A stretch of 64,000 bases of DNA from Rubrivivax sp. (GTDB taxonomy: Bacteria; Pseudomonadota; Gammaproteobacteria; Burkholderiales; Burkholderiaceae_C): positions 186,001 through 250,000 of the forward strand of contig JAIXSE010000015.1 of NCBI GenBank assembly GCA_027484825.1. The letters are read 5' to 3'. Positions within the stretch are counted from its first letter, which is position 1. Each line of letters opens with the position of its first letter. This document shows positions 11,542 to 42,404 of this stretch, piece after piece. The position numbers and the translations under genes are program-made. The notes beneath the pieces were generated by a model, which searched no databases, was not told the origin of the DNA, and saw only the letters and a program-made list of their open reading frames with translations.

Positions 11542-11578
11542 GCGGGCCGCATCAAGCCGGCTGCATCGACCGGAAGAA

Positions 11579-13078
11579 TCAGGCGTGCCGGCCGACCGGC
11601 CAGAAGCTGGGGTAGCGGCTGATGCTTGGCCAGCGCAGCGCTGCCAGGACCGCGGTGACCAGGACAGACCCGCCGATCAGGGGCACTGGCATCAGAGCAG
11701 GACGTTCGCCGATCACAACGGTCAGGCTCACTGTGCCGACCAACAACAGCATCGTCAGCAGCAGCGTCCACGCGGGGCGGGTCTCCCGCTCGACGGACCA
11801 GTTGCGCCACTGCAAAAGGCCCATCGGCAGCACCAGCAACGCCAAGCTCACCGCTGCCCGCCCCAAGAGGGACAAAGACATGTCGGCGCCCTTGAGGTGG
11901 CTGGCGAGCGCTTGCATCCCGCCCATAAACGCCAGCGCGAGCGTCCAGTTCACCACGTGGGCGCCCATCTGCCGACCGGCCAGTTGGCGGTTCAAGGCCG
12001 GTCCGCGCGGCACGCCGGGCAGCAACACCAGCACCGACTGTTCACGCCGACCGCGCAGCACCGCGCCGGGGGCGGCAATCAACGGATTGACCAGCATGCC
12101 GAGATAGGAAAAGGCGAACGCCAGCGCCATGCTGCCGCCAAGCTCCGCGCCGTCCGGAGTGACCAGCAGGAGGACGAACAATCCTGCGCCCATCGCGCCG
12201 GAAGTGAGCAGCAGAGCGCCGATGGTCGCCGCCCAGTGCGTGCGGGGATTGGACGCCAGTTCCACCCGCGCCATCACCGAGTGGACCGAAGGACGGGCGC
12301 GGCGAATCAGGACGTCCAGATAGACATTGCGCAGCCATGCAAAGGCTTGGCCCACCCAATCCAGCAGGATGGCAAGCCGCCCTTCCAGCGACGGCGCAAT
12401 CGCGGCCTGCTCGCCGCTGGACTTCAACAGGTCGCGCACCTGGGAGTCGCTACGCCAACTCTTGACGTGCCCGGGCCCCCCGGCCTGGAACAGGTGCCAC
12501 AGCGCCAGGGCGGACAGGACAAAGACGACAGCCGTCATCGACACCGGTTGATGGGTGTAGCTCTCCACCACCCGGGCCCTGACCGCCAGACGCATGGGCC
12601 CTGACACCGCAGCGCCCGCCAGCGAGACCACGACCCATCCCACAATCCAGATCCAGGGCCAGCGCACGATCACGGCCAAGCCCACGCAGGCCAGCATGGA
12701 CAAGATCAGCGCAGCAGGGCCGGGGATTTGCAGCGGTGAATAAGCCAGCAGCCCGGCGCTGGGCAAGGCCGTGACCAGGAGGCCCAGCACGGCCAGTTCC
12801 CGCAGGCGGCGAAGCTGAGCCGGCAGCAAGCGCGCCGTCAGAGGATGATTCTGGCGTTGCACGGCAGCGAAAAATCCTGCCCACAGGCACACCATGCAGG
12901 CGACCGTGCAGAACTGCGCCACGGGCACCACCCACCGGGGCTCGGAAAACGAGGCCACCAGGGCCACGATGACCGCCACCAGCATCACCAAAGACGGCGC
13001 GGTAATGCGGATGCCGCGCAGCCACACGCTCAGGATGGCGCCGTAAGCCGCCCGCCGCTGCGCGCCAGCCGGGTCCAT
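11579..13078 (-). CDS. ABC transporter permease partner of the GntR-linked exporter
   Basis: A 499-residue hydrophobic protein with about ten to twelve membrane segments (for example ITAPSLVMLVAVIVALVAS, AAVSLALLVLPMGLL, LLLTMLLLVGTVSLTVVIG). No family is recognised with confidence, but it directly follows the ABC ATPase (stop at 13090, this start at 13078), so it is the likely membrane half of that exporter. The longer frame would overlap the ATPase gene by about 100 bases and was rejected. Substrate unknown; the YtrA-type context suggests export of an antibiotic-like or cell-envelope-active compound. Confidence 0.75.
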   Translation of the reverse strand: MDPAGAQRRAAYGAILSVWLRGIRITAPSLVMLVAVIVALVASFSEPRWVVPVAQFCTVACMVCLWAGFFAAVQRQNHPLTARLLPAQLRRLRELAVLGLLVTALPSAGLLAYSPLQIPGPAALILSMLACVGLAVIVRWPWIWIVGWVVVSLAGAAVSGPMRLAVRARVVESYTHQPVSMTAVVFVLSALALWHLFQAGGPGHVKSWRSDSQVRDLLKSSGEQAAIAPSLEGRLAILLDWVGQAFAWLRNVYLDVLIRRARPSVHSVMARVELASNPRTHWAATIGALLLTSGAMGAGLFVLLLVTPDGAELGGSMALAFAFSYLGMLVNPLIAAPGAVLRGRREQSVLVLLPGVPRGPALNRQLAGRQMGAHVVNWTLALAFMGGMQALASHLKGADMSLSLLGRAAVSLALLVLPMGLLQWRNWSVERETRPAWTLLLTMLLLVGTVSLTVVIGERPALMPVPLIGGSVLVTAVLAALRWPSISRYPSFWPVGRHA

Positions 13079-13089
13079 GGCCTGCGCGC

Positions 13090-14007
13090 TCACTGGGCCA
13101 ACTCCACGAACAGGTCTTCGAGACTCAACGCCTCGCATTGCAGGCCGGCCTGGGGCGGCGGAAGATTCCCGTCGGGGAAGCGAACGAGCCATCGTTGCGA
13201 CGAAGGACTGGTGCGCTGATGAAGCACCTGGCCATTGCCCGCCTTCACTGCGGACCTCAGCACCGGCTCGCTGCCCACCAAGAGGCGCACTTCGTCCGCC
13301 AACTGGTCCTGCGGCGCTTGCAAGGCAATCTTGCCGCCGCTCAGGAACGCGATGTTGAAGGCGACCCGCTCCAGGTCGGACAGGATGTGGGTGGAAAAGA
13401 CCACCGTGGTGCCGCGGTCCAGCACCTGCTCCACCAGCTCGCGCAGAAAGTCCCGTCGGCCCACCGGATCGAGACTGGCCACCGGTTCATCCAGCACCAG
13501 CAGGTCGGGGTCATGCGCCAGCGCACGGATGATGGAAAGCCGCTGCTGCTGCCCCTGCGACAAGCGCGAGATGCGCCGGTTGACCGGGATCTCCCAGCGC
13601 GACAGCAGGCCGTCCACCTTGGCGGCGTTCCAGCGGGGATAGAAGCTGCGGAAGTAGCGCAGCAGCTGCTCCGGCGTGAAGTCATGGAACAGGTCGGATT
13701 GCTGGGGGACATAGCCGAGCCGAGCGCGCAGGGCGTCGGAGGGCTGCAGCGCAGGCTCGCCAAACAGCTGCACCTGGCCCAGGGACGGTTCGCGCAGGCC
13801 CAGGAGCGTCTCGAGCAGCGTGGTCTTGCCAGCGCCGTTGCGTCCAAGCAGACCCACCACCTGGCCGGGCTGGATCTGCCAATCGAGACCGTCGAGCACC
13901 GGGCCATGGCCCTTGAAATGCAGATGCAGCCCCATGGCTCGCACCGGTGGAGGTGCCAGCGAGCCAAGGGTGGCGTCGGCGGCATCGAGCATCAGGGTCT
14001 GTGTCAT
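13090..14007 (-). CDS. ABC transporter ATP-binding protein
   Basis: A 305-residue ATPase subunit. Walker A (GRNGAGKTT) lies near residues 55-63, followed by the Q-loop region, the signature LSQGQQQRLS, Walker B (DLLVLDEPVASLDP) and the switch His (VVFSTHILSDLERV). The C-terminal extension resembles multidrug-type exporters of the CcmA/YtrB group. Its start codon overlaps the stop of the GntR gene (ATGA), so the two are translationally coupled. It works with the permease that follows. Confidence 0.92.
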   Translation of the reverse strand: MTQTLMLDAADATLGSLAPPPVRAMGLHLHFKGHGPVLDGLDWQIQPGQVVGLLGRNGAGKTTLLETLLGLREPSLGQVQLFGEPALQPSDALRARLGYVPQQSDLFHDFTPEQLLRYFRSFYPRWNAAKVDGLLSRWEIPVNRRISRLSQGQQQRLSIIRALAHDPDLLVLDEPVASLDPVGRRDFLRELVEQVLDRGTTVVFSTHILSDLERVAFNIAFLSGGKIALQAPQDQLADEVRLLVGSEPVLRSAVKAGNGQVLHQRTSPSSQRWLVRFPDGNLPPPQAGLQCEALSLEDLFVELAQ

Positions 14008-14405
14008 GAGGTCTCTCCGGGATCCTTCAACAGGCTCTTGAACAGTGCCATCACCTGGTCGGGCGGCACCTCCAGCTGGCGGGCTTCGGCGGCTGCCTTC
14101 TCGAGGATGGGGCGCAGCAGCTCCACGCGGGAGCGGGTGCGCAGCGGCTTCTGGTGATGGGCGGCGACGACCATCGGAAGACCGCGGCGACGCTCCACCA
14201 GGCCTTCGGCCTCCATCAGGCCGAAGGCCTTGGACACGGTCATGGGATTGACCGCCAAGGTCTGGGCCAGCTCACGCACCGAAGGGATCTCCTGACCAGC
14301 CACCAATTGGCCGCTGGCGATGCGGCGGCGCATCTGATCGACCAGTTGGCGATAGATGGGCTCGGGGGAGCCGGGGTTGACGGTGAAGAGGAGGTCGGGG
14401 GGCAT
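14004..14405 (-). CDS. GntR-family (YtrA subfamily) transcriptional regulator
   Basis: A 133-residue repressor. A winged helix-turn-helix fills residues 15-80 (EPIYRQLVDQMRRRIASGQLVAGQEIPSVRELAQTLAVNPMTVSKAFGLMEAEGLVERRRG), with a short helical tail instead of a large effector domain, as in the YtrA group. Such regulators sit first in operons with ABC exporters, as here. Start at MPPDLLFTVN (14405) was chosen because the upstream part has no domain character and contains the operator palindrome. Likely autoregulated through the inverted repeat at 14417-14438. Confidence 0.9.
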   Translation of the reverse strand: MPPDLLFTVNPGSPEPIYRQLVDQMRRRIASGQLVAGQEIPSVRELAQTLAVNPMTVSKAFGLMEAEGLVERRRGLPMVVAAHHQKPLRTRSRVELLRPILEKAAAEARQLEVPPDQVMALFKSLLKDPGETS

Positions 14406-14416
14406 GGGTCGTCTGT

Positions 14417-14438
14417 GTGTATTAGTACGGTAATACAC
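14417..14438 (-). promoter_or_regulatory. Operator palindrome for the GntR regulator
   Basis: A perfect inverted repeat, GTGTATTA and TAATACAC separated by six bases, begins 12 bases upstream of the GntR start codon. It is the only strongly AT-rich palindrome in this region. YtrA-type regulators bind such sites over their own promoters, so this is the probable autoregulatory operator. The assignment is by position and symmetry only. Confidence 0.75.
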
Positions 14439-15104
14439 GTGGAGACGGAGGTCAAGGGGCTGTTGAAGTGACGGGGGGTGGATGGTCGGCGAAGCGTGAC
14501 GGCTGTCGAAAACCATTCAGTTCTGAACTTTGTTCATTGAGTTCTGAACTTTTCGGATGGGACGGAGCACGGTGCCCGCACTCGCAAGACTGCCCGCGAT
14601 CTCCGGGGGGCGGCACAGGGATGCACCGACGACTGCCTCTGGGCGGGCGCTGAAGCCGCCTGCAGGGCCGTTCGCGCGGATGTCGAGGCCTCCGCGTTGT
14701 GCGCCAACAGAAACGCCTCGGTGCTACATGGCCTCACTCACCCGGCGGCGAGCTTTCGCTGCAAAAGGTGCACTGGGCGGAGTTGATCCCCTTCATGTCC
14801 GTCATTCTCCTGATTGACGGACTTCACTGCTGAAGTTGTACGGCTGGAAGGGGGCAGGTCATGGGGCTTTTGTTGATCAATGAACTCGTGTTTGGGCAGC
14901 CGTCTGGGAAGGATGTGCACAGTTCGAGATCGTGCCTCAGATTCGGGAGGACGTGCCCCCCTAGCAGAGGGAAAGTGCGTGTCCGTCCAGCCGCACACGA
15001 TGATCGATTGACCCCTGCTCGGTCGTCACGCCGCCCTCTGTGCCCAAGGATGGCTCCGGCCCCAAAGAACGATCCGCTTGTGCTTGGAGCTTTTGCGTTG
15101 AGCG
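14439..15104. other. Intergenic stretch between GntR operon and insertion sequence
   Basis: About 670 bases with no open frame of convincing coding character. It contains the left pair of GTTCTGAAC-core repeats (14515-14553). The rest looks like eroded or foreign intergenic DNA; no tRNA, terminator with a T-run or known RNA motif was recognised. Confidence 0.6.
14515..14553 (-). repeat. Left copies of GTTCAGAAC-core repeat (two, minus orientation)
   Basis: Two copies of a short repeat whose minus-strand core reads AAAAGTTCAGAACT at 14540-14553 and AAGTTCAGAACT ending at 14518. Read on the minus strand, the 23 bases at 14531-14553 match the plus-strand copy at 16936-16958 at 22 of 23 positions. 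The two sites therefore form an inverted pair about 2.4 kb apart, outside the IS1182-type element. Confidence 0.85.
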
Positions 15105-15132
15105 CAGCTTTAGGCTGAGGCCGTGTGGAAAC
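15105..15132 (+). repeat. Left terminal inverted repeat of the IS
   Basis: Reads inward as CAGCTTTAGGC...GTGTGGAAAC and pairs with 16786-16813 with five mismatches over 28 bases. It lies about 140 bases beyond the transposase stop codon. Confidence 0.7.
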
Positions 15133-15271
15133 GCAGTTTGACTGAGGCCCACCAAGAGCACGGGCCACGCACGGTCCCTGCGAAGCGCCAACGGGCACCC
15201 CGAGGGCTCGTCTGAGCTTGAGGAGTGCTCCACCCGGGCATCCGAGCTGCGATGCGAGGTTTAAAGGGCGC

Positions 15272-16720
15272 TCACGCGCCCACCAGCCTCATCGCCTGCG
15301 CTGCCTTCTTGATGCCCAAGATCTGCATCACTCGTTTGAGGTTGTAGGCCAGGACCTGCAAGCTCATCTCGGTGCTGACATTGCCGAGCCTGCGCGTCAG
15401 GAAGTGCGTGCTGCCCATCCAGTGCTTGAGCGTGCCGAAGACATGCTCCACGGTCCTTCGCCGGATCATCATCGCGTCGGTGTCTCGGTCCAGTCGTCGC
15501 TGCATGGCATCGAGCACTTCTTGATGCTCCCAGCGGGAAATCCGTCGATGCTTGGAAGGCGTGCGCTCAGGCTTCATGGAGCATCCGGGACAGGCGCTGC
15601 TCCAGTAGCGACGGATCTGCAGCCCGTCTTCATCGCGCGTGAATCGATAGGTGGCTCGCTCGCCCGCTGGACATCGGTACTCGTCGTCCTTGGCGATGTA
15701 GATGAAGTCCGTCTTGTCGAAGCGGCCCTCGGCCTTCGCATTCGAAGTCATCGGCTTGGGTACGAAGGGCTTCATGCCGTCATCCGTGCAGCGCTTGATC
15801 TGCGAGGCGTTGAAGTAGCCCCGGTCGGCGTAGACCTTCAGGTTTAGCTTGTTCATCGCCTCTTGGGCCGCGCGCGCCATGCCACTGAGTTGGCCTCTGT
15901 CACTGCCGATGTTGGTGACTTCGTGGGCTACGACCAGGTGGTGCTTGGTGTCGACCGCGGCCTGCACGTTGTAGCCCACGACCCCGCTGCCTGCAGCCTG
16001 AGTCGCCATGGCGCGTGAATCCGGATCCGTAAACGACACCTGCTTGTCTGGCTGCCGCTGGAGGTGTTGCTCCATCTGGTCCAGACGCTGCATCTGCTCG
16101 CGTAACGCGTCGAGCTTGTGACTGAGCTCGGCATACCTCGGACCGAACTCCATGAGCGGCAACGTCCTGTCCGCCGTGTCGAGCGCCGCGAGGTAGCGCT
16201 GGATGCTCTCCTCGATTTGCTGGCGCCGCTTCTCGATCTTGGTGGCGGTGAAGTTCTGGTCGCGGCTGTTGACTGCCTTGAACTTGCTGCCGTCGACCGC
16301 CACACCGTCACCGCTCAGCAGCTTCAGCTGCCGGCACAGCTCGACGAAGCGACGGCAGACGTTGCGGATGCCCTGTCCGTTGTCACGGCGGAAGTCGGCG
16401 ATGGTCTTGAAGTCCGGAGCCAGGCGCTCGGTCAGCCACATCAGCTCGATGTTGCGCTGTGCTTCGCGCTCCAGGCGCCGGCTCGACTGGATGCGGTTGA
16501 GATAGCCGTAGATGTAGATTTTGAGCAGAACCGCCGGGTGGTAGGCCGGGCGTCCCGTCGCCGCGGGGGTGGCCCTCGAGAAACCAAGCGCGTCGAGATC
16601 AAGCTCTTCAACGTAGGCATCGATGACGCGCACAGGGTTATCTTCAGCGACGAAGTCATCCAGGCACTCGGGCAGCAGCGTCACTTGATATCGCCCCTGA
16701 CCTTCGACGAATCGCGCCAT
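15272..16720 (-). CDS. IS1182-family transposase
   Basis: A 482-residue DDE transposase. Start MARFVEGQGRYQVTLLPECLDDFV at 16720 was chosen because GGAGGTG lies just upstream; an ATG at 16741 is also in frame. The N-terminal domain of IS5/IS1182-like transposases is present (GRPAYHPAVLLKIYIYGYLNRIQSSRRLEREAQRNIELMWLTERLAPDFKTIADFR). Catalytic regions follow: VAVDGSKFKAVNS, VYADRGYFN and the C-terminal RRRTVEHVFGTLKHWMG segment with the Glu. No frameshift or internal stop, so it may be active. Confidence 0.95.
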   Translation of the reverse strand: MARFVEGQGRYQVTLLPECLDDFVAEDNPVRVIDAYVEELDLDALGFSRATPAATGRPAYHPAVLLKIYIYGYLNRIQSSRRLEREAQRNIELMWLTERLAPDFKTIADFRRDNGQGIRNVCRRFVELCRQLKLLSGDGVAVDGSKFKAVNSRDQNFTATKIEKRRQQIEESIQRYLAALDTADRTLPLMEFGPRYAELSHKLDALREQMQRLDQMEQHLQRQPDKQVSFTDPDSRAMATQAAGSGVVGYNVQAAVDTKHHLVVAHEVTNIGSDRGQLSGMARAAQEAMNKLNLKVYADRGYFNASQIKRCTDDGMKPFVPKPMTSNAKAEGRFDKTDFIYIAKDDEYRCPAGERATYRFTRDEDGLQIRRYWSSACPGCSMKPERTPSKHRRISRWEHQEVLDAMQRRLDRDTDAMMIRRRTVEHVFGTLKHWMGSTHFLTRRLGNVSTEMSLQVLAYNLKRVMQILGIKKAAQAMRLVGA

Positions 16721-24941: not shown

Positions 24942-27182
24942 ATGAGCACGCGCTTCGACCTGGACCGCGACACGCCGTCCCCCACCCTCTCCCGCCGCAC
25001 GATCCTCAAGGCCAGCGCCTCCGCTGGTGCCCTGATGCTGACCGTGGGCCTGCCCGCCGCGGACGCGGACGCGGCGACTTCCACCACCGGCGCCAAACCC
25101 GGTCGGGCAGCAGTTGCCGGATCCCTCAGTGACGCTGGCATCGGCCTGAACGCGATGGTGCAAGTGGGCCCCGGTGACGCCGTCACGCTGGTGATGCCTC
25201 GTGTGGAAATGGGCCAGGGCACCTACACCGCGCTCTCGCAGCTGATCGCCGAAGAGCTGGAGATCGATCCGACCCACGTGACCCTGCGTCACGCGCCTGC
25301 CGATGACCGGCTGTATGCCAACCCCGCGCTCGGCGCCCAGGTGACTGGCGGCTCCACCTCGGTGGCCACCGCCTGGCTGCCGATGCGACAGGCCGGTGCC
25401 GCCGCGCGAACGCTGCTGGTCCAGGCCGCCGCGGCGCAGTGGGGTGTGGCAGCCGAGGCCTGCCGCGCCGAGAACGGGCGCGTGCTGCATCCGCAGACCG
25501 GTCGGACCCTGGCCTATGGCGACCTGGCCGCAGCCGCAGCGCGTCTGCCGGTCCCGGCGCTTGATCAGCTCAAGCTCAAGGACCCGCGCAACTTCCGCTA
25601 TGTCGGCCAGCCGCTGCTGCGCCTGGACGCGCCAGCGAAGGTCGAAGGCCGCGCCCAATTCGGCATCGACGTCCACATCCCCGGCATGCTGATTGCGGCC
25701 GTGGCGGCGAGTCCCTACTTCGGCGGCAAGGTCAAGTCGCTGGACACCGCTGCGGCCCGCCGCGTGCGCGGCGTGCGCCAGGTACTGAACCTGGGCGACC
25801 TGGTGGCCGTGCTGGCGGACCACAACGGCGCGGCCCGCAAGGGTCTGGCGGCGGCCAACATCCAGTGGGACACCGGCCCGGCTTCGAGCTATTCCACCGC
25901 GACCATGGAGGCGGAACTGGAAGCGGCGTCCCATCGCGACGGCGCCACCGCCCGGACGCAGGGGGACGTGGCCGCGGCCCGCTCCTCCGGCGCACGCACG
26001 CTGGACGCCATCTACCAGCAGCCACTGATGGCGCATGCGGCGATGGAGCCGATGAACTGCACGGTCCGCCTGAGCAAGGACCGCTGCGAAGTCTGGACCG
26101 GCACCCAGGTGCCCACCCGGGCCCAGGCCGCGGCCGCTGAGGTGGCCGGACTCAAGCCGGAGCAGGTCGAGATCCACAACCAGTATCTGGGGGGCGGCTT
26201 CGGCCGGCGTCTGGATGCGGATGTGGTGCCCCAGGCGGTGCGCATCGCCAAGGCTGCGCGGGTGCCGGTCAAGGTGGTGTGGAGCCGGGAGGAAGACATC
26301 CAGCACGACGTCTACCGCCCCTATCACTACAACCGGATCAGCGCGACGCTCGATGCCCAGGGGCATCCCGTGGCCTGGCAGCACCGGGTCACCGGCTCGT
26401 CGATCATGGCCCGCTTCGCGCCGGCCTTCTTCAAGGACAACATCGACGGCGATGCGATCCGGGATGCGGCCGGCCCCTACGACTTCGCCAATGTGCTGGT
26501 CCAGTATGTGCGGCAGGAACCGCCAGCCGGCCTGACCACCGGATGGTGGCGCGGCGTCGGCCACATGCAGAACGCCTTCCCGGTGGAGTGCTTCCTCGAC
26601 GAACTCGCGCACGACACACGCCAGGACCCGCTGCAGCTGCGCCTGAGCCTGCTGAGCAAGCATCCGCGTGCCCAGCACGTGCTGAAGCTGCTGGCCGAGA
26701 AGGCCCAGTGGGGCCAGACGCGCACCGCCGGTCAGGACCAGCGATACGGCCGAGGTCTGGCACTGACGCAGGCTTTCGGCACCTACGCCGCACAGGTCAC
26801 CGACGTGGCGGTGGCGGCGGACGGCACGGTGCAGGTGCTCCGGGTGATCACGGTGGTCGACTGCGGCATGGTGGTGACGCCCAGCACGGTTGAGGCCCAG
26901 GTGCAGGGTGGCAATGTGTTTGGCCTGTCCGCCGCGCTGTTCGGCAACATCACCGTCAAGGACGGACGCATTGAGCAGTCCAACTTCCATGACTTCCGCG
27001 TGATGCGGATGAACGAAGTGCCGGTGATGGAGACCCACATCGTGCCCAGCGCCGAAGCGCCCACCGGCATCGGCGAGATCGCCACCGTGCTGACGGCACC
27101 GTCGGTGGTCAACGCGGTGTTTGCAGCCACCGGTCGCCGGGTGCGCAAGCTGCCGCTGGACTCGGAGACGCTGCGGGCGTGA
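24942..27182 (+). CDS. Molybdenum hydroxylase catalytic subunit (IorB type), copy 1
   Basis: A 746-residue xanthine dehydrogenase-family protein binding a molybdopterin cofactor. Start ATG at 24942 lies just past the stop of the 2Fe-2S gene, with GGAGGG upstream. SRRTILKASASAGALMLTVGLPAADA is a twin-arginine signal, so the folded complex is exported to the periplasm. Cofactor-binding segments include [32 protein letters not shown] and TGWWRGVGHMQNAFPVECFLDELA. The active-site Glu is in PTGIGEIATVLTAPSVVNAVFAATG. Substrate is probably an aldehyde or N-heterocycle; not determinable here. A near-paralogue is at 35688-37904. Confidence 0.94.
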   Translation: MSTRFDLDRDTPSPTLSRRTILKASASAGALMLTVGLPAADADAATSTTGAKPGRAAVAGSLSDAGIGLNAMVQVGPGDAVTLVMPRVEMGQGTYTALSQLIAEELEIDPTHVTLRHAPADDRLYANPALGAQVTGGSTSVATAWLPMRQAGAAARTLLVQAAAAQWGVAAEACRAENGRVLHPQTGRTLAYGDLAAAAARLPVPALDQLKLKDPRNFRYVGQPLLRLDAPAKVEGRAQFGIDVHIPGMLIAAVAASPYFGGKVKSLDTAAARRVRGVRQVLNLGDLVAVLADHNGAARKGLAAANIQWDTGPASSYSTATMEAELEAASHRDGATARTQGDVAAARSSGARTLDAIYQQPLMAHAAMEPMNCTVRLSKDRCEVWTGTQVPTRAQAAAAEVAGLKPEQVEIHNQYLGGGFGRRLDADVVPQAVRIAKAARVPVKVVWSREEDIQHDVYRPYHYNRISATLDAQGHPVAWQHRVTGSSIMARFAPAFFKDNIDGDAIRDAAGPYDFANVLVQYVRQEPPAGLTTGWWRGVGHMQNAFPVECFLDELAHDTRQDPLQLRLSLLSKHPRAQHVLKLLAEKAQWGQTRTAGQDQRYGRGLALTQAFGTYAAQVTDVAVAADGTVQVLRVITVVDCGMVVTPSTVEAQVQGGNVFGLSAALFGNITVKDGRIEQSNFHDFRVMRMNEVPVMETHIVPSAEAPTGIGEIATVLTAPSVVNAVFAATGRRVRKLPLDSETLRA

Positions 27183-34309: not shown

Positions 34310-34422
34310 GGTCGCTGCCGTCGCTGCGGTCTTGGCGGCCGGTGGAGCACGTCAAATGCACTGGGCATCGCGCTTGCCCGCTGTCTCCAACGCAATCCTG
34401 CACATCCGCAAGGAGTTCCTAC

Positions 34423-34968
34423 ATGCCCACGCAAGCCACGACCGCCAGCCGCAAGTCCACCGCCCGCAGCGCTGCCACCACGACCCGTCGTGTGGCGGTC
34501 AAGAAGACGCCGGACGCCATTGCGTTGCTGCGCGCCGACCACAAGAAGGTGAACGACCTGTTCGAGCAGTTCAAGAAGACCCGGTCCGCCGCCAAGAAGA
34601 AGCAGATCGTGTCCGAGATCTGCCTGGAGCTGACCGTTCACGCCCAGATCGAGGAAGAGATCCTCTATCCGGAAGTGCAGGCCGCACTGAAGGACAAGGA
34701 AATGGTGCCCGAAGCCCGCGTCGAGCATCAGAGCGTCAAGGACCTGATCGCCGCTGTGGAAGGCGTCGAGCCGGACGGCGAGGACTACGACGCCAAGGTC
34801 ACCGTGATGGGGGAATGGGTGAAGCACCACGTCAAGGAAGAACAGAACGAGATGTTCCCCAAGGTGAAGAAGTCCAAGCTGGACCTGGTGGACATGGGCG
34901 AACGCCTCCAGCAGCGCAAGGAGGAATTGATGGCCGAGAAGATGAGCGGCGAGGCCCTGCCGCACTGA
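34423..34968 (+). CDS. Hemerythrin-domain protein
   Basis: A 181-residue cytoplasmic protein. Start ATG at 34423 follows AAGGAG at a good distance. A basic Ala/Thr/Lys-rich N-terminus (1-40) precedes a hemerythrin HHE four-helix domain: LLRADHKKVNDLFEQF, LTVHAQIEEEILYPEV, EARVEHQSVKDLI, WVKHHVKEEQNEMFPKV. The His and Glu residues would bind a di-iron centre for oxygen or NO sensing or iron handling. It is monocistronic and ends in a clear intrinsic terminator. Confidence 0.92.
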   Translation: MPTQATTASRKSTARSAATTTRRVAVKKTPDAIALLRADHKKVNDLFEQFKKTRSAAKKKQIVSEICLELTVHAQIEEEILYPEVQAALKDKEMVPEARVEHQSVKDLIAAVEGVEPDGEDYDAKVTVMGEWVKHHVKEEQNEMFPKVKKSKLDLVDMGERLQQRKEELMAEKMSGEALPH

Positions 34969-34992
34969 CCCTCGATTGACCCCAATGCCGCA

Positions 34993-35029
34993 GGGGCGGC
35001 CTTCTCCGGAAGGTCGCCCCTTGCTTTTT
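34993..35029 (+). terminator. Intrinsic terminator after hemerythrin gene
   Basis: A twelve-pair GC-rich stem (GGGGCGGCCTTC at 34993-35004 with GAAGGTCGCCCC at 35009-35020, one G-T wobble), four-base loop, followed by TTGCTTTTT. Classic Rho-independent structure, 25 bases after the stop codon. Confidence 0.93.
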
Positions 35030-35187: not shown

Positions 35188-35691
35188 ATGGCTCAGCTGC
35201 AAGTCAATGGCAAGACGGTGGAGGTGGATGCCGACGGCGACACCCCCCTCCTGTGGGCGCTGCGGGAGCAGCTGGGCCTGACGGGCACCAAATACGGCTG
35301 CGGGCTCGCGCAATGCGGCGCCTGCACCGTCCACCTCAATGGCGAAGCGGTACGCAGTTGCGTGCGGCCGCTCTCGAGCGTGGCGCCGACGGACCGCATC
35401 ACCACCATCGAAGGCCTGTCCCGGGATGCCAGCCATCCGGTGCAGCAGGCCTGGGCCGCGCTGGACGTGCCGCAATGCGGCTTCTGCCAGAGCGGCATGA
35501 TCATGGCCGCCGCGGCGCTGCTCAAGTCCAAGCCCAAACCGACCGATGCGGACATCGACAGCGCCATGACCAACATCTGTCGATGCGGCACCTACAACCG
35601 GGTGCGGGCGGCGATTCATCTCGCGGCGGGCCAGGTGCCCCGCAAGTCCATCGCCATCCGCCTGCTGGATCCGAACGGGAGCGAAGCATGA
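35188..35691 (+). CDS. Molybdenum hydroxylase 2Fe-2S subunit, copy 2
   Basis: A 167-residue paralogue of the subunit at 24461. Cluster motifs: [35 protein letters not shown] and [11 protein letters not shown]. The start follows CAGGGAGACGAC. It differs by a longer C-terminal tail ([24 protein letters not shown]). Its stop overlaps the start of the catalytic subunit (ATGA), giving translational coupling. It is the first gene of a run that continues into soxXYZA. Confidence 0.93.
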
Positions 35692-37904
35692 ACGCGCCGC
35701 ACAAGACCGATGTCCTGACGGCCGCCGCCCCTGTGGATACCGGACGGCGTCTGTTTCTGCAGTCCAGCGCGGCGGCGGGTGGGCTGATGCTGGGCTTTCA
35801 TGTGCCGGGCCTGGCGTCGGACGCCCCGGCCGCCGGTGCGCTGCCGGAGCTCAATGTCTGGGTGGTGGTGCAGCCGGACGACACGGTGACCATCCGCATC
35901 GCCCGCTCCGAAATGGGCCAGGGCACCCTGACCGGGCTGGCGCAGTTGGTGGCCGAGGAGCTGGATTGCGACTGGGCGCGGGTGCGCACCGAATACCCGA
36001 CCCCGGGCCAGAACCTCGCCCGTAATCGCGCCTGGGGCAGTTTTTCCACCGGCGGCAGCCGGGGCGTGCGTGAATCCCACGACTATGTGCGCAAGGGCGG
36101 CGCCAGTGCCCGGGCCATGCTGATGCAGGCCGCTGCGGCGCAGTGGCAGGTGCCGGTCAGTGAACTCAGCACGGATCGGGGTGTGGTGCGCCATGCGGCG
36201 AGCGGCCGCACCGTGCGCTATGGCCAGTTGGCCGCCGCGGCGGTGTCACAGACGCCGCCCACCGACATCGTCCTCAAGGCCCCGAAGGACTGGAAGATCG
36301 CCGGCAAGCCCTACAAGCGGCTGGACACCCGCGGCAAGCTCGATGGCAGCCAGGTCTACGGCATGGACCTGAAGATGCCTGGGCTGCTGAATGCGGCCAT
36401 CAAGGACTGCCCGGTGTTTGGCGGCAAGGTCAAGCGCTTTGATGCGGCAGCGATTGCCGGTCGGCCCGGCGTGAAGAAGGTGGTGCCGGTCGGTGAGACC
36501 GCCGTGGCCGTGGTGGCCGACACCTGGTGGCAGGCCAAGACCGCGCTGGATGCCCTGCCCATCGAATGGGACGAAGGCCCCAATGCCAAGCTGGACAGCG
36601 CGCAGATCGCCGCCATGCTCAAGGCCGGTCTGGACGCGCCCGAGGCGGCGGTGGGCCAGCGGCAGGGCGATGTGACGGCCGCGTTGGCGGGCGCCGCCCG
36701 CAAGATCGAGGCGGTCTACAGCTACCCGCATCAGAACCACGCCACGATGGAGACGATGAACGCGACCGCGCGCTGGACGCCGGAGCGTTGCGAAGTCTGG
36801 ACGCCCACCCAGAATGGCGAAGCAGCCCTGGCGGCGACGGCTGAAGCGGCCGGCCTGTCGCCGGCCCAGTGCGAGGTCTACAAGCTCCATCTGGGCGGCG
36901 GTTTTGGCCGGCGCGGGGCGGTGCATGACTGGGTGCGCCAGGCGGTGGCCATCGCCCGCGCCCTGCCCGGCACCCCGGTCAAGCTGATCTGGAGCCGGGA
37001 AGAGGACATGCTGCATGGCCGCTATCACCCCATCACCCAGTGCAAGTTCATCGCTGGCCTGGATGCGAAGGGACAGCTGCAGGCGCTGCACATGCGCATC
37101 TCCGGGCAGTCCATCGTGGCCGACCTGTTCCCGCAGAACATCAAGAACGGGCTGGATCCGGTGGTGTTCCAGGGGCTGAACCAGGGCGGCACCGAGGGCG
37201 CCTTCGGCTATGCGGTGCCCCACCTGCTGATCGACCATGCGATGCGCAATCCGCCGGTCCCGCCCGGCTTTTGGCGCGGTGTGAACCTCAACCAGAATGC
37301 CATCTACGTCGAGAGCTTCATCGACGAGGTGGCCCATGCCACCGGCAAGGACCCGCTGGCCCTGCGCCGCGAGCTGCTGGCCCAGTCGCCCAAGCATCTG
37401 GCGGTGCTCAATGCAGTGGCGGAGAAGGCGGGCTGGGGCAAGCCGGCGCCCAAGGGCCACTATCGAGGGCTGGCGCAGATCATGGGCTTTGGCAGCTATG
37501 TGGCGGCGTGCGCCGAGGTGTCCGTGGCCAAGGACGGCACGCTGAAGATCCACAAGATCATCGCGGCCACCGATCCCGGCCATGCAGTGAATCCGCAGCA
37601 GATCCAGGCGCAGGTGGAGGGCAGCTTCGTCTACGGGCTGTCGGCGGCGCTGTTCGGCGAGATCACGCTGAAGGACGGGCGCGTGCAGCAGGACAACTTC
37701 CACACCTATCCGGTGGTGAAGATGGAGCACATGCCGCAGGTGGAATCGATCGTGATGCCGTCCGGCGGTTTCTGGGGCGGGGTGGGCGAGCCCACCATTG
37801 CCGTGGCGGCGCCCGCAGTGCTCAATGCGATCTTCGCCGCGACCGGGCAACGCATCCGCGAGCTGCCGCTGTCCCGTCATACGCTCAAGCCCAAGGTGGC
37901 CTGA
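35688..37904 (+). CDS. Molybdenum hydroxylase catalytic subunit, copy 2
   Basis: A 738-residue xanthine dehydrogenase-family molybdopterin protein. N-terminal [26 protein letters not shown] is a twin-arginine-like signal. Cofactor segments include [40 protein letters not shown] and [23 protein letters not shown]; the active-site Glu lies in [32 protein letters not shown]. Full length compared with IorB. It is followed after 32 bases by soxX, so its electrons may go to the encoded cytochromes. Substrate unknown. Confidence 0.94.
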
Positions 37905-37936
37905 CGGCAGCGGGTGCTTCCTCCGACCCGACCGCC

Positions 37937-38356
37937 ATGCCGCTGCTTGAGTTGATGCTGGCCACCAGTCTTCTGGCGCCCTTCCAGGTGGAGGGCGATG
38001 CCATCCCGGAGCCCCTGGAGGGGCGCGCGGGGGATGCGGCGCGCGGACGTGCCATCGTGGCGCAGCGGTCCCAGGGCCTGTGCCTGCTGTGCCATGCCGC
38101 TCCCATTCCGGAAGAGCGGCAGCAAGGCAACCTTGCACCGGATCTGGCGGGGGTGGGCCGGCGCCTGTCGGAGGGGCAGTTGCGCTTGCGCCTGGTGGCG
38201 CCGCAGCGGGTGAATCCGCCATCGATCATGCCGGCCTACTACCGCGCCGGGCCGGATTCGGGCTTGCAGCGGGTCGCGCGGGATTTCGACAACAAGCCGG
38301 TGCTGGAGGCACAGCAGATCGAGGACATCGTGGCCTACCTGAGGACCTTGAAGTGA
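37937..38356 (+). CDS. soxX: Sulfur-oxidation cytochrome c SoxX
   Basis: A 139-residue monohaem cytochrome with CLLCH at 49-53 and the conserved tail NLAPDLAGVGRRLSEGQLRLRLVAPQRVNPPSIMPAYYRAG...PVLEAQQIEDIVAYLRTLK, including the Met ligand region (SIMPAYYR). SoxX pairs with SoxA to attach thiosulfate to SoxY. The N-terminus (MPLLELMLATSLLAPFQVEGDA) is a poor signal peptide, so the start may differ. Its stop overlaps the soxY start (GTGA). Confidence 0.9.
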   Translation: MPLLELMLATSLLAPFQVEGDAIPEPLEGRAGDAARGRAIVAQRSQGLCLLCHAAPIPEERQQGNLAPDLAGVGRRLSEGQLRLRLVAPQRVNPPSIMPAYYRAGPDSGLQRVARDFDNKPVLEAQQIEDIVAYLRTLK

Positions 38357-38781
38357 GCCGCCCTACGCGTCGTCGGGTGCTCCAAGCACTGTCCCTGGCG
38401 GCGCTGCTGCCCCGGCCGGCCGTGGCCAGCCGCGCCGAGTTGGAGCAGGCCCTGCGGACCTTCACGCAAGGGCAGCCCCTGAGCGCCGGTGAGGTGCAAT
38501 TGGACATTGCGCCGCTGATCGAGAACGGCAATGCGGTGCCGGTGACCCTGTCCACGCGCCAGCCGGTGAAGGTGCTTGCGCTGTTCAATGAACTCAATCC
38601 GCAGCGCGAAGTGCTGCAGGCGCAGTTGCGGCCGAATCCCGCCGGCGCGCGGCTCTCCACACGCATTCGCCTGGCCACCAGCCAGCAACTGGTCGCCGTG
38701 GCGCAGACGACGGACGGTCGATGGTGGGAACACCGGGTCGATGTCATCGTGACCTTGGCCGCCTGCATCGAAGGGGGCTGA
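38353..38781 (+). CDS. soxY: Sulfur carrier SoxY with variant C-terminus
   Basis: A 142-residue protein starting at a GTG that overlaps the soxX stop. RPTRRRVLQALSLAALLPRPAVA is a Tat-type signal. The Ig-like domain (VQLDIAPLIENGNAVPVTLSTRQPVKVLALFNELNPQREVLQAQL...SQQLVAVAQTTDGRWWEHRVDVIVTLAACIEGG) matches SoxY. The carrier Cys is at 138, but the usual GGCGG swinging arm is replaced by AACIEGG with Cys four residues from the end instead of two. Function as substrate carrier is likely but the arm is atypical. Confidence 0.88.
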   Translation: MSRPTRRRVLQALSLAALLPRPAVASRAELEQALRTFTQGQPLSAGEVQLDIAPLIENGNAVPVTLSTRQPVKVLALFNELNPQREVLQAQLRPNPAGARLSTRIRLATSQQLVAVAQTTDGRWWEHRVDVIVTLAACIEGG

Positions 38782-38785
38782 GGCC

Positions 38786-39109
38786 ATGGCCATCACGCGC
38801 ATCACCCTGCCGGCCACGGCCCACCGCGGCGAGACGGTGGAGGTGCAGTGGCTCATTGCCCATCCGATGGAGACCGGCCACCGCAGCGACGACCAGGGCC
38901 GCGTGCTGCCGCGCGACATCATCACCCGCTTCGAATGCCGGTATCTGGGGGAACTGGTGATCGCGCTGGACTTGTTCCCGGCCATCGCTGCGAATCCGTA
39001 TGTGGCGTTCACTCTGGTGGCCGATCGCAGCGGTGATCTGGAGTTCCGGTGGACCGGGGACCGGGGGTTTGAGCAGCGGGAAGTGCGACCGCTGGTGGTG
39101 ACGGGGTGA
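38786..39109 (+). CDS. soxZ: Sulfur carrier partner SoxZ
   Basis: A 107-residue beta-sandwich protein (ITRITLPATAHRGETVEVQWLIAHPMETGHRSDDQGRVLPRDIITRFECRYLGELVIALDLFPAIAANPYVAFTLVADRSGDLEFRWTGDRG), full-length for SoxZ and with no signal. It forms the periplasmic SoxYZ heterodimer and is co-exported with SoxY. Four bases separate it from soxY; its stop overlaps the soxA start. Confidence 0.95.
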   Translation: MAITRITLPATAHRGETVEVQWLIAHPMETGHRSDDQGRVLPRDIITRFECRYLGELVIALDLFPAIAANPYVAFTLVADRSGDLEFRWTGDRGFEQREVRPLVVTG

Positions 39110-40146
39110 GGCGACCGATCGCCGGGAGCGTGAGGCCGTCGCGGATGATGGCCAAGGTCAGCCTGGGCCCGTGCCTGCGCCTGCGCCTGCGCCTCTGCGT
39201 CAGGCGTGGAGCTGTCCGAGTTCTCCGGGCTTTGGGGGGTTTAGGGCGTCTTGAGGCTTTTGCGGCTGGCAGTGCTGGCAGTGCGATCGTTGCAGCCATT
39301 GCGGTGGCGGTAGCAGGTGCAGCCCTGGCAGCAGATGCGGTCGCTACACCGATCTCATCCGTCATACACGCGGCTTTGACCGCGCCCACATCCGTCCCGC
39401 CCGCCCCTCCCACCTCCGCCGCTCAGCCTGCATCGACAGGCCCATCCCCGGAGCCTTCGCCCTCCGCCCGCTCGGGCTTCGATTTCATGACCCCGGCCCT
39501 TCAGGCGATGCAGCGCAGCGACGCCCAGAACCCTGCGATGCTGTGGGTCGCGCAGGGCCAAGCGCTGTGGAAGACCGCGCCCGGCAATGGCAAACCGGCC
39601 TGCGCCGGCTGTCATGCCAACGGCATGGCCGGTGTTGCCGCACGCTATCCCGCGTTTTCAGAGCCCATGAAGCGGCCGGTGACCCTGATCGAGCAGATCA
39701 ACCGGTGCCGCACGACCCACCAGTCACAGCCCGCCTGGCGCAGCGAAAGCGAAGCGCTGTTGTCCCTGGCGGCCTCCATCGGCCAGCAGTCGCGCGGCAT
39801 GCCCATCCAGCCGCCGGCGGACAAGCGCTTGGCGGCGTGGCAACAAGCCGGTGAAGCGCTGTACCGGATGCGTATGGGGCAGTTGAACCTGTCCTGCGCC
39901 CAATGCCATGAGGAGCGGGCGGGAGGACGATTGGCCGGCGCGGTGATCCCCTCCGGCCTGGCCACCGGCTACCCGATCTACCGGCTGGAGTGGCAGGGCA
40001 TGGGGAGCCTTCCGCGGCGCCTGCTCAACTGCACCACCGGTGTCCGCGCCGCGCCGCTCAATGAAGACGAACTCACGCAGCTGGAGCTCTACTTGATGCA
40101 GCGCGCCACCGGCCTGCGGGTGGAAACACCGGCCGTCCGGCCATGA
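39106..40146 (+). CDS. soxA: Dihaem cytochrome c SoxA
   Basis: A 346-residue protein from a GTG overlapping the soxZ stop. Residues 1-120 are Arg/Ala-rich then a Pro/Ser linker; the true signal peptide may begin at ATG 39145 or later. Two haem sites are present: CAGCH (166-170) and CAQCH (264-268). Cys201 (INRC) and Cys309 (LLNC) sit where SoxA uses cysteine as axial ligand and catalytic residue. The end (GYPIYRLEWQGMGSLPRRLLNCTTGVRAAPLNEDELTQLELYLMQRATG) is diagnostic. SoxA partners SoxX to load substrates onto SoxYZ. No soxB or soxCD follows. Confidence 0.9.
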   Translation: MRRPIAGSVRPSRMMAKVSLGPCLRLRLRLCVRRGAVRVLRALGGLGRLEAFAAGSAGSAIVAAIAVAVAGAALAADAVATPISSVIHAALTAPTSVPPAPPTSAAQPASTGPSPEPSPSARSGFDFMTPALQAMQRSDAQNPAMLWVAQGQALWKTAPGNGKPACAGCHANGMAGVAARYPAFSEPMKRPVTLIEQINRCRTTHQSQPAWRSESEALLSLAASIGQQSRGMPIQPPADKRLAAWQQAGEALYRMRMGQLNLSCAQCHEERAGGRLAGAVIPSGLATGYPIYRLEWQGMGSLPRRLLNCTTGVRAAPLNEDELTQLELYLMQRATGLRVETPAVRP

Positions 40147-40277: not shown

Positions 40278-42404
40278 TCAGGCGGCCTTGAGCTGGCTCA
40301 GTCGCAGCAAATGGCCCGGCTCGCTCAGGAAGCGCATGCGCTCATTGGCCGCCATGCTGTGCAGCGCCCCCGGCAGCATCGCGATGCGCGACAGATGCAG
40401 GTCCCGCACATGCGCCCGCAGGCCGCGACCGGTATCGCGACGACCCATGGCCTGGCAGGCCAGCGCCAGAAGGTGGCGGTTCTTGAGCATGTCCGCCCAA
40501 CCCGGCAAACTGCGGCTCTGTTGGCCGTAGGCCCAGGCATGACGCAGCACGGTCGGCGTGCGGCTCTCCTCGGGAATCAGCAGCAGCCCGATCTGACGCA
40601 CTCGCGCACCCAGTCGCGCCCGGCTGGTCAGCACCGTAATGGGCGCGGCCAGCATCAGCGGCAGCGCGATCGGCGCGATCCACAGCAGCGTGGACGGACG
40701 CAGCACCGCCAGCACCACAGCCACCGCCAGAGCGGCCAGACCCGGACGACCGAAGGCCGCAAAAGCTTCCTTCCAGGACACGTCCTCGGCAGCTCGCGGG
40801 GGCGACTTCCACTCCAGCGAAATGCCGGTCACCGCCACCAGGCAGAAGATGCTGTGCGCGACCATCCGCAGCGGGGCCTGCAGCAGCGCCATCATCGCTT
40901 CCACCGCACTGCTGCCCAGCAGCTTGAGGGCGCCACCATACTGACCTTGCTCGCCGCGCAGCAGCACGGCACCGACAGACAGCACCCGCGGCAGCGTCAG
41001 CATGCCGATGGTGCCCACCCACAGGGCCAGCACGCCCGGGGCGAGTGTGCCTTCCGGGGTGAACGGGTGGAAGGCGTCATTGCCGCCCACATTCCACATC
41101 AGCGCGCCCAGGCACACATACAGCAGCCACAGCGGCGCCGTGAAGTAGGACAGCGCACCCGTCACCAGCATGGCGCGGTGGACCGAATGCAGGCCCGGCT
41201 CCGCCACCAGACGCAGGTTCTGCAGGTTGCCCTGGCACCAGCGGCGGTCGCGTTGCAGTTCAGCCAGCAGATGCGGCGGCTGCTGTTCGTAGCTGCCCAC
41301 CAGGTCGTGCACCAGCCAGACCTGATAGCCGGCACGGCGCATCAGGGCCGCTTCGACGAAGTCGTGCGACATGATGTCCTTGCCATGCAGCGGCGCCAGC
41401 GCGCAATGCTTCATGAAAGGCTCGACGCGGATGATCGCGTTGTGGCCCCAATAGTGGGCCTCACCCAGCTGCCAGTACTGCATGCCGGCTGCGAACAGAC
41501 GACCGGTGACGCGGCTGGCGAACTGCTGGGCGCGGGCATGCAGCGTCTCGTGGCCGCAGACCTGGTTGGCCGCTTGCAGAATGCCGGCGCGCGGATGGGC
41601 TTCCATCAGACGCACCAGAGTCAGCAGGCAATCGCCGCTCATCACGCTGTCGGCATCCAGCACCACCATGTAGCGGTAGTTGCGGCCCCAGCGGCGGCAG
41701 AAGTCGGCGACGTTACCGGCCTTCTTCTTCACCCGGCGCTGACGCCAGCGGTAGTGGATGCGGCCCTGGCCGGCGAACTGCTCGCGCAGTTCAGCCCAGG
41801 CGGCCAGCTCGGCCGTACGGCATTCCGGATCGCTGCTGTCCGACAGGATGTACACGTCGAACAGACGCAGCGCACCTGCCGCCGCCAAGGATTCGCAGCT
41901 GGCCCGCAGTCCGGCGAACACCGTGGTCACGTCCTCATTGCAGATGGGCATGACCAGGGCGGTCCGCGCGTCCGCGCTGATCGGGCCGTTGCCGGCCGAA
42001 TGGGCCGACAAGGCATGCCGATCCCCGCGCAGCTGGACCCAGAAGCCCATCACCGCGGTGACGCAGCCGGCGCTGACCCAGGCGAACAGCAACACGAACA
42101 GGCTCAGGTGCAGGCACTGCAGCATCAGCGGCAGGCCGGGCTGCGCCCAGCCGCCCTGCGTGTGCACCAGGACGCTGGTGGCCAGCGCCGTGGCGGCGCC
42201 GATGGACAGCATCAAGGCCTGGCGCCGACGTCGGGCGGCGCGTTCCCAGGGAGCCAGTTGCGGCGCCGCAGGCAGCGCACCCTCGATGGGCGCGCGGCTG
42301 AACCACGGACGCGGCACCATGGCACCACGGTTGACCGGCGGAGCGCTGGCGCCCGCCGGGCCGGCGAGGCCGGCACTCATTGGGGAGGAAGTACGAGGCT
42401 CCAT
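40278..42404 (-). CDS. opgH: Periplasmic glucan glucosyltransferase OpgH
   Basis: A 708-residue inner-membrane glycosyltransferase that builds beta-1,2 glucan backbones from UDP-glucose. Membrane helices at both ends surround a GT2 domain with MVVLDADSVMSGDCLL (DxD), KKKAGNVADFCRRWG and the QRDRRWCQGNLQN (QxxRW) motif. Usually about 700-850 aa. It overlaps the opgG end by 28 bases; an alternative ATG at 42380 would give a four-base overlap, but the ATG at 42404 has a better ribosome site (ACGGAA). Operon opgGH. Confidence 0.95.
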   Translation of the reverse strand: MEPRTSSPMSAGLAGPAGASAPPVNRGAMVPRPWFSRAPIEGALPAAPQLAPWERAARRRRQALMLSIGAATALATSVLVHTQGGWAQPGLPLMLQCLHLSLFVLLFAWVSAGCVTAVMGFWVQLRGDRHALSAHSAGNGPISADARTALVMPICNEDVTTVFAGLRASCESLAAAGALRLFDVYILSDSSDPECRTAELAAWAELREQFAGQGRIHYRWRQRRVKKKAGNVADFCRRWGRNYRYMVVLDADSVMSGDCLLTLVRLMEAHPRAGILQAANQVCGHETLHARAQQFASRVTGRLFAAGMQYWQLGEAHYWGHNAIIRVEPFMKHCALAPLHGKDIMSHDFVEAALMRRAGYQVWLVHDLVGSYEQQPPHLLAELQRDRRWCQGNLQNLRLVAEPGLHSVHRAMLVTGALSYFTAPLWLLYVCLGALMWNVGGNDAFHPFTPEGTLAPGVLALWVGTIGMLTLPRVLSVGAVLLRGEQGQYGGALKLLGSSAVEAMMALLQAPLRMVAHSIFCLVAVTGISLEWKSPPRAAEDVSWKEAFAAFGRPGLAALAVAVVLAVLRPSTLLWIAPIALPLMLAAPITVLTSRARLGARVRQIGLLLIPEESRTPTVLRHAWAYGQQSRSLPGWADMLKNRHLLALACQAMGRRDTGRGLRAHVRDLHLSRIAMLPGALHSMAANERMRFLSEPGHLLRLSQLKAA

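Follow-up and report, generated by a model that had tools for sequence, protein, structure and literature searches.

Gene content of the operon

The 64,000-nucleotide stretch of Rubrivivax sp. analysed here (assembly GCA_027484825.1, contig JAIXSE010000015.1, positions 186,001 to 250,000; hereafter the window) carries at 35188-40146 on the plus strand an operon of six genes, which encode the 2Fe-2S subunit and the molybdopterin subunit of a hydroxylase, followed by SoxX, SoxY, SoxZ and SoxA (Table 1). A preliminary description, made from the sequence without database searches, had proposed six co-directional and tightly spaced or overlapping genes, and family matches and coordinates confirmed all of them in their places. 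The two hydroxylase genes, soxX and soxY, and soxZ and soxA overlap by 4 bases each, a gap of 4 bases separates soxY from soxZ, and the ATG of soxX lies 32 bases past the hydroxylase stop. The operon is a real, conserved and partly known variant of the Sox kind, and it is probably functional.

Table 1. Features of the window in and around the hydroxylase-sox operon
Feature	Coordinates	Strand	Match or remark
Second IorB-type molybdopterin large subunit	24987-27179	+	
Hemerythrin-domain protein	34348-34968	+	PA2171-type persister protein is the best NCBIfam match, 92 bits, below the cut-off of 190
Terminator-like site	34992-35021		upstream of the operon
Hydroxylase small subunit, two [2Fe-2S] domains	35188-35691	+	Fer2_2 99.9 bits, Fer2 43.9 bits (Pfam)
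Hydroxylase large subunit, molybdopterin, xanthine oxidase family	35688-37904	+	MoCoBD_1 112.8 bits, MoCoBD_2 108.6 bits
soxX, monoheme cytochrome c (CLLCH, Met of MPAY)	37937-38356	+	TIGR04485 69.3 bits (cut-off 61); 1h31_B 66.8 bits
soxY, AACIE arm (C-terminus TLAACIEGG), N-terminal RR	38353-38781 (GTG start)	+	SoxY PF13501 81 bits
soxZ	38786-39109	+	TIGR04490 79.3 bits (cut-off 76); PF08770 89 bits
soxA, diheme (CAGCH, CAQCH)	39106-40146	+	TIGR04484 189.6 bits (cut-off 110); 1h31_A alignment 134 bits
Inverted repeat, perfect, 9 bp	40213-40221/40244-40252	.	no T run; between the convergent soxA and glycosyltransferase gene (40278-42404)

The hydroxylase has the make-up of the two-subunit isoquinoline 1-oxidoreductase (IorAB) type, as had been suggested for it, with the MoCoBD domains, the catalytic Glu, two [2Fe-2S] domains and a signal of the twin-arginine translocation (Tat) type, and there is no gene for a protein binding flavin adenine dinucleotide (FAD) in the six-gene operon. 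Residue roles were assigned by alignment to solved chains and from established knowledge; in this way Glu701 of the large subunit, which stands in a GVGEP motif, is taken by us to be the catalytic residue. The Tat-type RR occupies residues 20-21 of the large subunit, and the hydroxylase is probably Tat-exported, while the small subunit, which has no export signal of its own, would be exported together with the large one. The closest solved chain to the large subunit is 8gy3_C (227 bits), the large subunit of a membrane aldehyde dehydrogenase, an enzyme which passes its electrons to cytochrome c. A structure model of the large subunit had a mean predicted local distance difference test score of 66.8, with values below 50 in stretches including the catalytic Glu, and was not used as evidence.

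In the Sox half, SoxX and SoxA of the window have the hemes and the cysteine of canonical SoxXA. The Cys of RRLLNC in SoxA has as its counterpart in the solved SoxA chain a Cys that serves there as a heme ligand; the start of soxA is uncertain and may lie further in, the family match starting at residue 143. SoxY belongs to the SoxY family, as the preliminary description had it, but is not of the canonical kind, its altered arm having gone unnoticed. Whereas SoxY of canonical Sox ends in GGCGG, the window protein has a C-x-E/D arm. Its best-scoring family is TIGR04487, the "SoxY-related AACIE arm protein", which has the same arm, although the score of 141 bits is below the curated cut-off of 172; with the GGCGG-type model TIGR04488 it reached 72 bits, below the cut-off of 125. 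The hairpin that had been described after soxA exists as a perfect inverted repeat, but it lacks a T run and its fold was no better than that of shuffled sequences (z -1.3; 20 of 200 shuffles equally good). The terminator-like site upstream of the operon was the sole one found, against 1.8 expected by chance, and a promoter scan found no promoter.

Conservation and distribution

A contig scan with a SoxY alignment yielded at least 585 confirmed relatives, the best 80 of which were kept as named loci; residue counts below refer to the named loci holding the gene. The gene order large subunit-soxX-soxY was present in 80/80 of them, in Alpha- and Betaproteobacteria. The complete six-gene order of the window, which had been put forward for a survey, was found in 70, while eight of the remainder start inside the large subunit and two stop after soxY at the contig end. 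Because the order recurs in all 80 loci as far as the contigs reach, chance is excluded. Hosts include Roseateles, Polaromonas, Methylibium, Duganella, Massilia, Noviherbaspirillum, Undibacterium, Curvibacter, Roseomonas, Belnapia, Enterovirga, Xanthobacter, Azorhizobium and Ancylobacter, with members of Oxalobacteraceae, Xanthobacteraceae and Roseomonadaceae among them. No SoxB within 7 kb and no SoxC within 7.5 kb was found in any of the 80 loci, some of whose contigs are short.

The residues tested were conserved almost without exception. Seven of the eight Cys of the small subunit were kept in 72/72 loci and the eighth in 71/72, the RR of the large subunit in 73/73 and its Glu701 in 80/80. 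In SoxX, the C, C and H of the heme motif and the Met were kept in 80/80, and in SoxA both CxxCH motifs in 78/78 and the Cys of RRLLNC in 76/76. The Cys of the SoxY arm and the Glu two residues on were each present in 79/79, but since the scan patterns contained the arm, the named loci do not test it.

Among 299 genomes of the window's family, an AACIE-type SoxY of at least 136 bits was found in 49, and the hydroxylase gave 49 hits of at least 1050 bits, 46 of which had such a SoxY at a distance of about 1.2 kb or less when the lists were compared by eye. The three exceptions were G478 and G526, for which no such SoxY was listed, and G527, whose contig stops 30 bases after the gene. In all 30 family loci laid out the hydroxylase adjoins soxY, soxX being missing in one (L120, genome G563). 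A sample of 299 genomes of the phylum gave 15 SoxY matches at 1e-35. In two of these the arm was GGCGG and SoxB was adjacent. Leaving aside the source genome, 12 matches remain, of which seven were accompanied by the hydroxylase (L199, L215-L219 and L222), and the other five stretches were too short. The unit is also present in three genomes of the same order of only 1.7-2.1 Mb. That the hydroxylase and the Sox carrier form one conserved, co-inherited unit is supported.

The unit persists in genomes that lack canonical Sox. At E 1e-100, SoxB was present in 34 of the 49 family genomes with the AACIE-type SoxY and missing from 15, as against 130 of the other 250. Fourteen of the 15 SoxB-less genomes also have no SoxC at 1e-60, and ten have no other SoxY match. 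The source genome is of the Roseateles type, with Roseateles depolymerans and R. terrae as its closest named relatives. In its assembly (5.66 Mb, 36 contigs, 95.2% complete), the absence of soxB and soxCD noted for the operon extended genome-wide as far as searched, the best matches being 55 bits for SoxB (cut-off 550) and 24 bits for SoxC (cut-off 420), with SoxD not searched; owing to the 36 contigs and the completeness of 95.2%, this absence is likely and not proven. Neither SoxB nor SoxC was found in G584, a 100% complete genome of the same genus which has the operon. The combination of a complete soxB/soxCD set elsewhere with an unconserved hydroxylase linkage, which had been named as speaking against a joint pathway, did not appear. 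The source genome has one SoxZ in total and no SorA over the cut-off, and it carries on another contig a pair of genes for flavocytochrome c sulfide dehydrogenase (FCSD), FccAB, whose FccB shares a branch with four operon FccBs and stands on a long end branch.

SoxY arm type and partner enzyme

For the arm analysis 100 further loci, mostly of about 15 kb, were read, 60 of which were chosen by SoxY alone and the rest after hydroxylase positions had been seen. The counts refer to 83 SoxY genes with an arm in loci chosen by SoxY match, after six fused or armless ones had been dropped (L250, L252, L253, L261, L298 and L299), and SoxB was detected with a profile built from three verified proteins. 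A C-x-E/D arm stood beside the hydroxylase in 20/20 cases, and other arms (GGCGG, other GGC and SGCGM) in 0/63. SoxB was adjacent to 28 of these 63 and to none of the 20. Fisher's test for arm against hydroxylase gave 1e-19, the sequences not being independent. Counted as C-x-E/D were AACIE, AACVE, AACLE, AACTE, SACTE and AGCIE, and AACVIG in two close relatives (L218 and L219); the rule was framed after the arms had been seen and includes this odd AACVIG, and it misses the VACIE and TACFD arms of L056, L057, L206 and L209, which all stand beside the hydroxylase, L098 stopping before the arm.

The SoxY of L231, which is beside the hydroxylase, scores 200 with TIGR04487 (cut-off 172), and the same family name was given by NCBI to the SoxY of an eight-gene operon on a Methylobacterium plasmid. 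The arm motif is a simple means to separate two uses of SoxY. AACIE arms within SoxB clusters were considered and rejected: the candidates L225 and L220 reach 144 bits with TIGR04487, yet their arm is GGCGG and they pass the true-SoxY model.

Another group of SoxYZ has an SGCGM or GSCGL arm and was found in 13 loci of the window's family (L245 and L285-L296), 12 of which have FccB at most 5 kb from soxY. All 13 have a second, distant FccB-like gene, and no SoxB, SoxXA or hydroxylase was found nearby. According to the accessible part of a report on SAR324, SoxYZ lies there beside flavocytochrome c with the other sox genes absent (PMC4782131). In Bradyrhizobium diazoefficiens, of two soxY genes soxY1 alone was needed for thiosulfate, as far as the text available states (PMC5748708).

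Operon variants and flavocytochrome c sulfide dehydrogenase

The operon occurs in several arrangements (variant ARRANGEMENTS). Type (a) is that of the window and has no fcc genes in the operon. In type (b), fccA-fccB stand between the hydroxylase and soxX, as in the Alphaproteobacteria L074, L082, L085, L092, L096, L101, L104, L105 and L108, in the Methylobacterium plasmid L326, and in four genomes belonging to other classes within the phylum (L215, L218, L219 and L222). In type (c), fccAB follow soxA in 12 Oxalobacteraceae loci and are divergent upstream in L046 and L232-L234. The hydroxylase and soxXYZA are convergent in type (d), with SACFD or TACFD arms (L205-L207, L209 and L224), and type (e) consists of the hydroxylase and soxYZ with no intact soxXA (L208 and L231). 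In L231 and L120, both of genome G563, the hydroxylase, soxY and soxZ are intact, soxX was not found and soxA is a C-terminal remnant. The hydroxylase with SoxYZ is thus the smallest unit seen, and the hydroxylase with SoxXA and without SoxYZ was seen neither among the 80 named loci nor among the further loci surveyed.

FccB was present in 22 of the 80 named loci. A single FccB lineage for 29 hydroxylase operons (against 16 others) was rejected by the approximately unbiased test (p-AU 3e-37). The group tested had first been seen on the tree, and the second, distant FccB-like genes found in the SGCGM loci were not included. As the FccB proteins of the operons do not form one clade, sulfide dehydrogenase joined the operon at least twice, and through this repeated recruitment a role in sulfur chemistry gains support. 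The type (b) loci L215 and L222 have only the eight genes in common, as expected of a self-contained unit.

The hydroxylase clade

In the hydroxylase tree, 47 of the 49 rows of one clade (Shimodaira-Hasegawa-like approximate likelihood ratio test support 100) are sox-linked. Outside the clade are 25 rows with no Sox gene nearby and one sox-linked row, L208, and 29 signature positions separate the 47 linked from the 25 unlinked rows. A plasmid search found hydroxylases about 66-67% identical in Sinorhizobium and Rhizobium; upstream of one of them, in L325, stands a c-type cytochrome gene. The second IorB-type large subunit of the window (Table 1) is 45% identical to that of the operon, falls outside the sox-linked clade and has 1 of the 29 signature residues.

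Comparison with known systems

A similar cluster was described in 2013 in Starkeya (now Ancylobacter) novella as a second sox cluster, soxX2Y2Z2A2F2 with Snov_1975/1976, which was very little expressed on glucose, methanol or thiosulfate, and its authors suggested that it was perhaps functionless or active under other conditions, as far as the accessible sections of that paper describe it (PMC3797975). On the same partial account, the S. novella cluster and the window operon are alike in having a molybdenum enzyme of the xanthine oxidase family and soxXYZA with neither soxB nor soxCD in the cluster, and in gene set and block order by tag number (molybdenum enzyme, flavocytochrome, sox) the S. 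novella cluster equals the eight-gene operon of Ancylobacter defluvii L108. It differs from the window operon in having a SoxF-like flavocytochrome c within the operon, whereas FccAB of the source genome is on another contig, and in its host, which also has a full sox cluster, while no SoxB or SoxC was found in the source genome. No further report of the operon was found in the literature, the search leaving subscription journals mostly outside; nor did we find in print the breadth of its distribution, the residue conservation, the arm-partner rule, the repeated FCSD recruitment, the occurrence without SoxB or the solitary hydroxylases of Rhizobiaceae.

Compared with canonical Sox (SoxXA, SoxYZ, SoxB and SoxCD), the window operon has homologous SoxXA and SoxYZ with the catalytic residues kept, but SoxB and SoxC were not found, the arm is AACIE and a molybdenum hydroxylase of another family is in the operon. 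With the enzymes of the IorAB/AldFGH type (isoquinoline 1-oxidoreductase and membrane aldehyde dehydrogenase) the hydroxylase shares the subunit make-up, the Tat-type signal and the catalytic Glu, whereas the sox-linked hydroxylases form a clade of their own with the 29 signature positions. A SoxYZ-type carrier that is likewise tied to a periplasmic dehydrogenase and not to SoxB is the quinoprotein-dehydrogenase-associated SoxYZ-like carrier TIGR04557, according to the part of the source available (PMC12997753). That system, however, has a fused SoxYZ and an enzyme dependent on pyrroloquinoline quinone, and the window SoxY scores only 45 bits with TIGR04557 (cut-off 140).

Proposed function

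We tentatively propose, with a probability of about 0.45, that the operon encodes one periplasmic sulfur pathway, separate from thiosulfate oxidation, in which the hydroxylase acts on a small organosulfur compound and the Sox half handles the sulfur. Its basis in the sequences is the operon itself, the conservation, the invariant active-site residues, the arm type that goes with the partner, the repeated recruitment of FCSD and the occurrence without SoxB. Sulfur chemistry is suggested because SoxXA and FCSD are present, carbon oxidation because the molybdenum centre is of the xanthine oxidase type, and a substrate other than thiosulfate because SoxB is lacking and also because the matching S. 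novella cluster is little expressed on thiosulfate. In such a pathway, the Tat-exported hydroxylase would oxidise the carbon next to the sulfur of the organosulfur compound, SoxXA would link a thiol, sulfide or persulfide by oxidation to the cysteine of SoxY, and FCSD, encoded in the operon or elsewhere in the genome, would oxidise released sulfide. SoxB would be unused, and the C-x-E/D arm in place of GGCGG would suit another partner. Two orders are conceivable: the compound may already be bound to SoxY when the hydroxylase acts on it, or it may be oxidised in free form and its sulfur be passed to SoxY afterwards. We infer this joint action of the parts, the organosulfur substrate, the order of events, the export and the acceptor of the electrons.

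In metagenome surveys, the presence of soxX, soxY, soxZ and soxA is read as a sign of thiosulfate oxidation. Here these four marker genes are part of a unit that lacks SoxB, the thiosulfate hydrolase, and that by SoxY score is present in 49 of the 299 family genomes. If the unit does oxidise organic sulfur, it would be a widespread step of organosulfur breakdown that has so far gone unrecognised.

One periplasmic pathway had also been suggested in the preliminary description. What stands of this suggestion is a conserved, co-inherited unit to which FCSD was recruited at least twice, while Rhizobiaceae plasmids and two genomes that have the hydroxylase without adjacent Sox genes, together with several further observations, weigh against it and against our proposal. 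The hydroxylase can stand alone, which argues against strict coupling. No Sox gene was seen in the stretches read around two rows of the clade, L211 (G549) and L223 (G478); the G549 hydroxylase is an open frame of 733 codons. On the three Rhizobiaceae plasmids read (L325, L327 and L328), neither Sox nor FCSD genes lie within 9 kb of the hydroxylases, which nest in the sox-linked clade and retain 28-29 of the 29 signature residues; since the hydroxylase occurs without Sox, contact with Sox does not account for these positions. Two of the plasmids hold no SoxY match (on the plasmid only, other replicons not having been searched), and the third has a distant SoxY match with another arm next to fccAB. 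Moreover, when the arm was left out of the SoxY tree, two label changes were needed for the hydroxylase group, so that the arm rule may be based on one or few switches, and a single origin is possible. There is no FccB within 5 kb in 58 of the 80 named loci, and interplay with canonical Sox is possible in the 34 operon-bearing family genomes which also have SoxB. Finally, no neighbouring gene tells the carbon substrate, pyruvate dehydrogenase and transporter genes recurring within related groups only.

A version with a tethered substrate is a second, SoxB-independent Sox cycle, in which SoxXA would load the AACxE arm of SoxY with a sulfur compound and the arm would insert into the hydroxylase, which would oxidise the tethered compound and return a persulfide or free SoxY. 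It would explain the differing arm where the operon has no SoxB, and to our knowledge it would be the first case of a periplasmic molybdenum hydroxylase whose substrate is tethered to a protein. We nevertheless hold it to be doubtful, mainly because a hydroxylase of the sox-linked clade occurs without Sox. The hydroxylase might instead be an alternative sulfane dehydrogenase that replaces SoxCD, oxidising SoxY-bound sulfur after FCSD and SoxXA have loaded sulfide or polysulfide on SoxY. The recruitment of FCSD, the intact residues of SoxXA, an arm type that follows the partner enzyme and the hydroxylase-SoxYZ units without intact SoxXA in L208 and L231 agree with such a role, which we consider unlikely: acting on sulfur only, it would leave the Sox-less hydroxylases of Rhizobiaceae unexplained, the low expression of the S. 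novella cluster on thiosulfate (in the available text) speaks against it, and xanthine-oxidase-family enzymes hydroxylate carbon. We know of none that oxidises sulfur.

It also seems rather improbable that the hydroxylase is an ordinary oxidase of aldehydes or N-heterocycles, for which SoxXA would serve as an electron relay or beside which Sox would have a separate, co-transcribed sulfur function. The nearest solved enzyme is indeed a membrane aldehyde dehydrogenase, a c-type cytochrome gene stands upstream of one solitary Rhizobiaceae hydroxylase, and the operon has no FAD-binding gene. However, the type of SoxY arm follows the linkage, and the block is kept in hosts as distant as those of L215 and L222, which share the eight genes only. 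A relay, moreover, would not need SoxYZ, yet the hydroxylase occurs with SoxYZ and without intact SoxXA, and the converse was unseen in the loci surveyed; the earlier suggestion that SoxXA takes electrons from the hydroxylase is weakened by L208 and L231, which have no intact SoxXA beside the hydroxylase.

Two further explanations fare worse. Enzymes of the xanthine oxidase family require sulfurated molybdenum, and SoxXA/SoxYZ with FCSD could supply sulfane sulfur that restores the terminal sulfido ligand of the exported molybdenum centre in the periplasm. A sulfur carrier and a sulfide oxidase accompany an exported member of this family, and the smallest unit is the hydroxylase with SoxYZ, but a gene of the XdhC-MobA type, the usual cytoplasmic route, lies near the operon in L218, and Sox genes are missing next to the close solitary hydroxylases and next to 25 more distantly related ones; such maintenance is quite improbable. 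Least credible of all is that the operon is a leftover, its Sox genes being duplicates that now have no function, an idea put forward for S. novella. SoxAX and SoxYZ of the second cluster were undetected in the S. novella proteomes under the conditions tested, according to the sections available (PMC3797975), and one decayed copy was met here, that of G563. Against this, the tested residues are invariant in 76/76 to 80/80 loci of Alpha- and Betaproteobacteria, with one Cys at 71/72, the operon provides the sole SoxY match in 10 of the 15 SoxB-less family genomes, and it is retained in the three small genomes of the same order.

Neighbouring genes

Immediately upstream of the operon in the window is the gene of the hemerythrin-domain protein (Table 1). 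Among the named loci, those of the Comamonadaceae type (L039, L052, L077 and others) have genes of the pyruvate dehydrogenase complex on the opposite strand, downstream of soxA; near the operon, the E1 component was found in 8, E2 in 11 and lipoyl-E3 in 13 of the 80 loci, and this linkage is possibly mere synteny of related hosts. The transporter, amidase, TauE, molybdenum-cofactor and pyruvate dehydrogenase neighbours were considered as clues to the substrate and were not used as proof, each being limited to related loci.

Loci of the Roseomonas type (L114, L066, L078, L081 and others) have a TauE/SafE transporter convergent with the operon, as in 7 of the 80 loci, and upstream an ATP-binding cassette transporter of the SsuABC/NMT1 type, an amidase and a PuuE-like polysaccharide-deacetylase gene. 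Downstream of the operon in L218, at 9859-15396 of that locus and with homologues in L219, there are genes for a LysR-type helix-turn-helix protein, an XdhC-MobA type fusion, TauE/SafE, and MoaA- and MoaC-type proteins.

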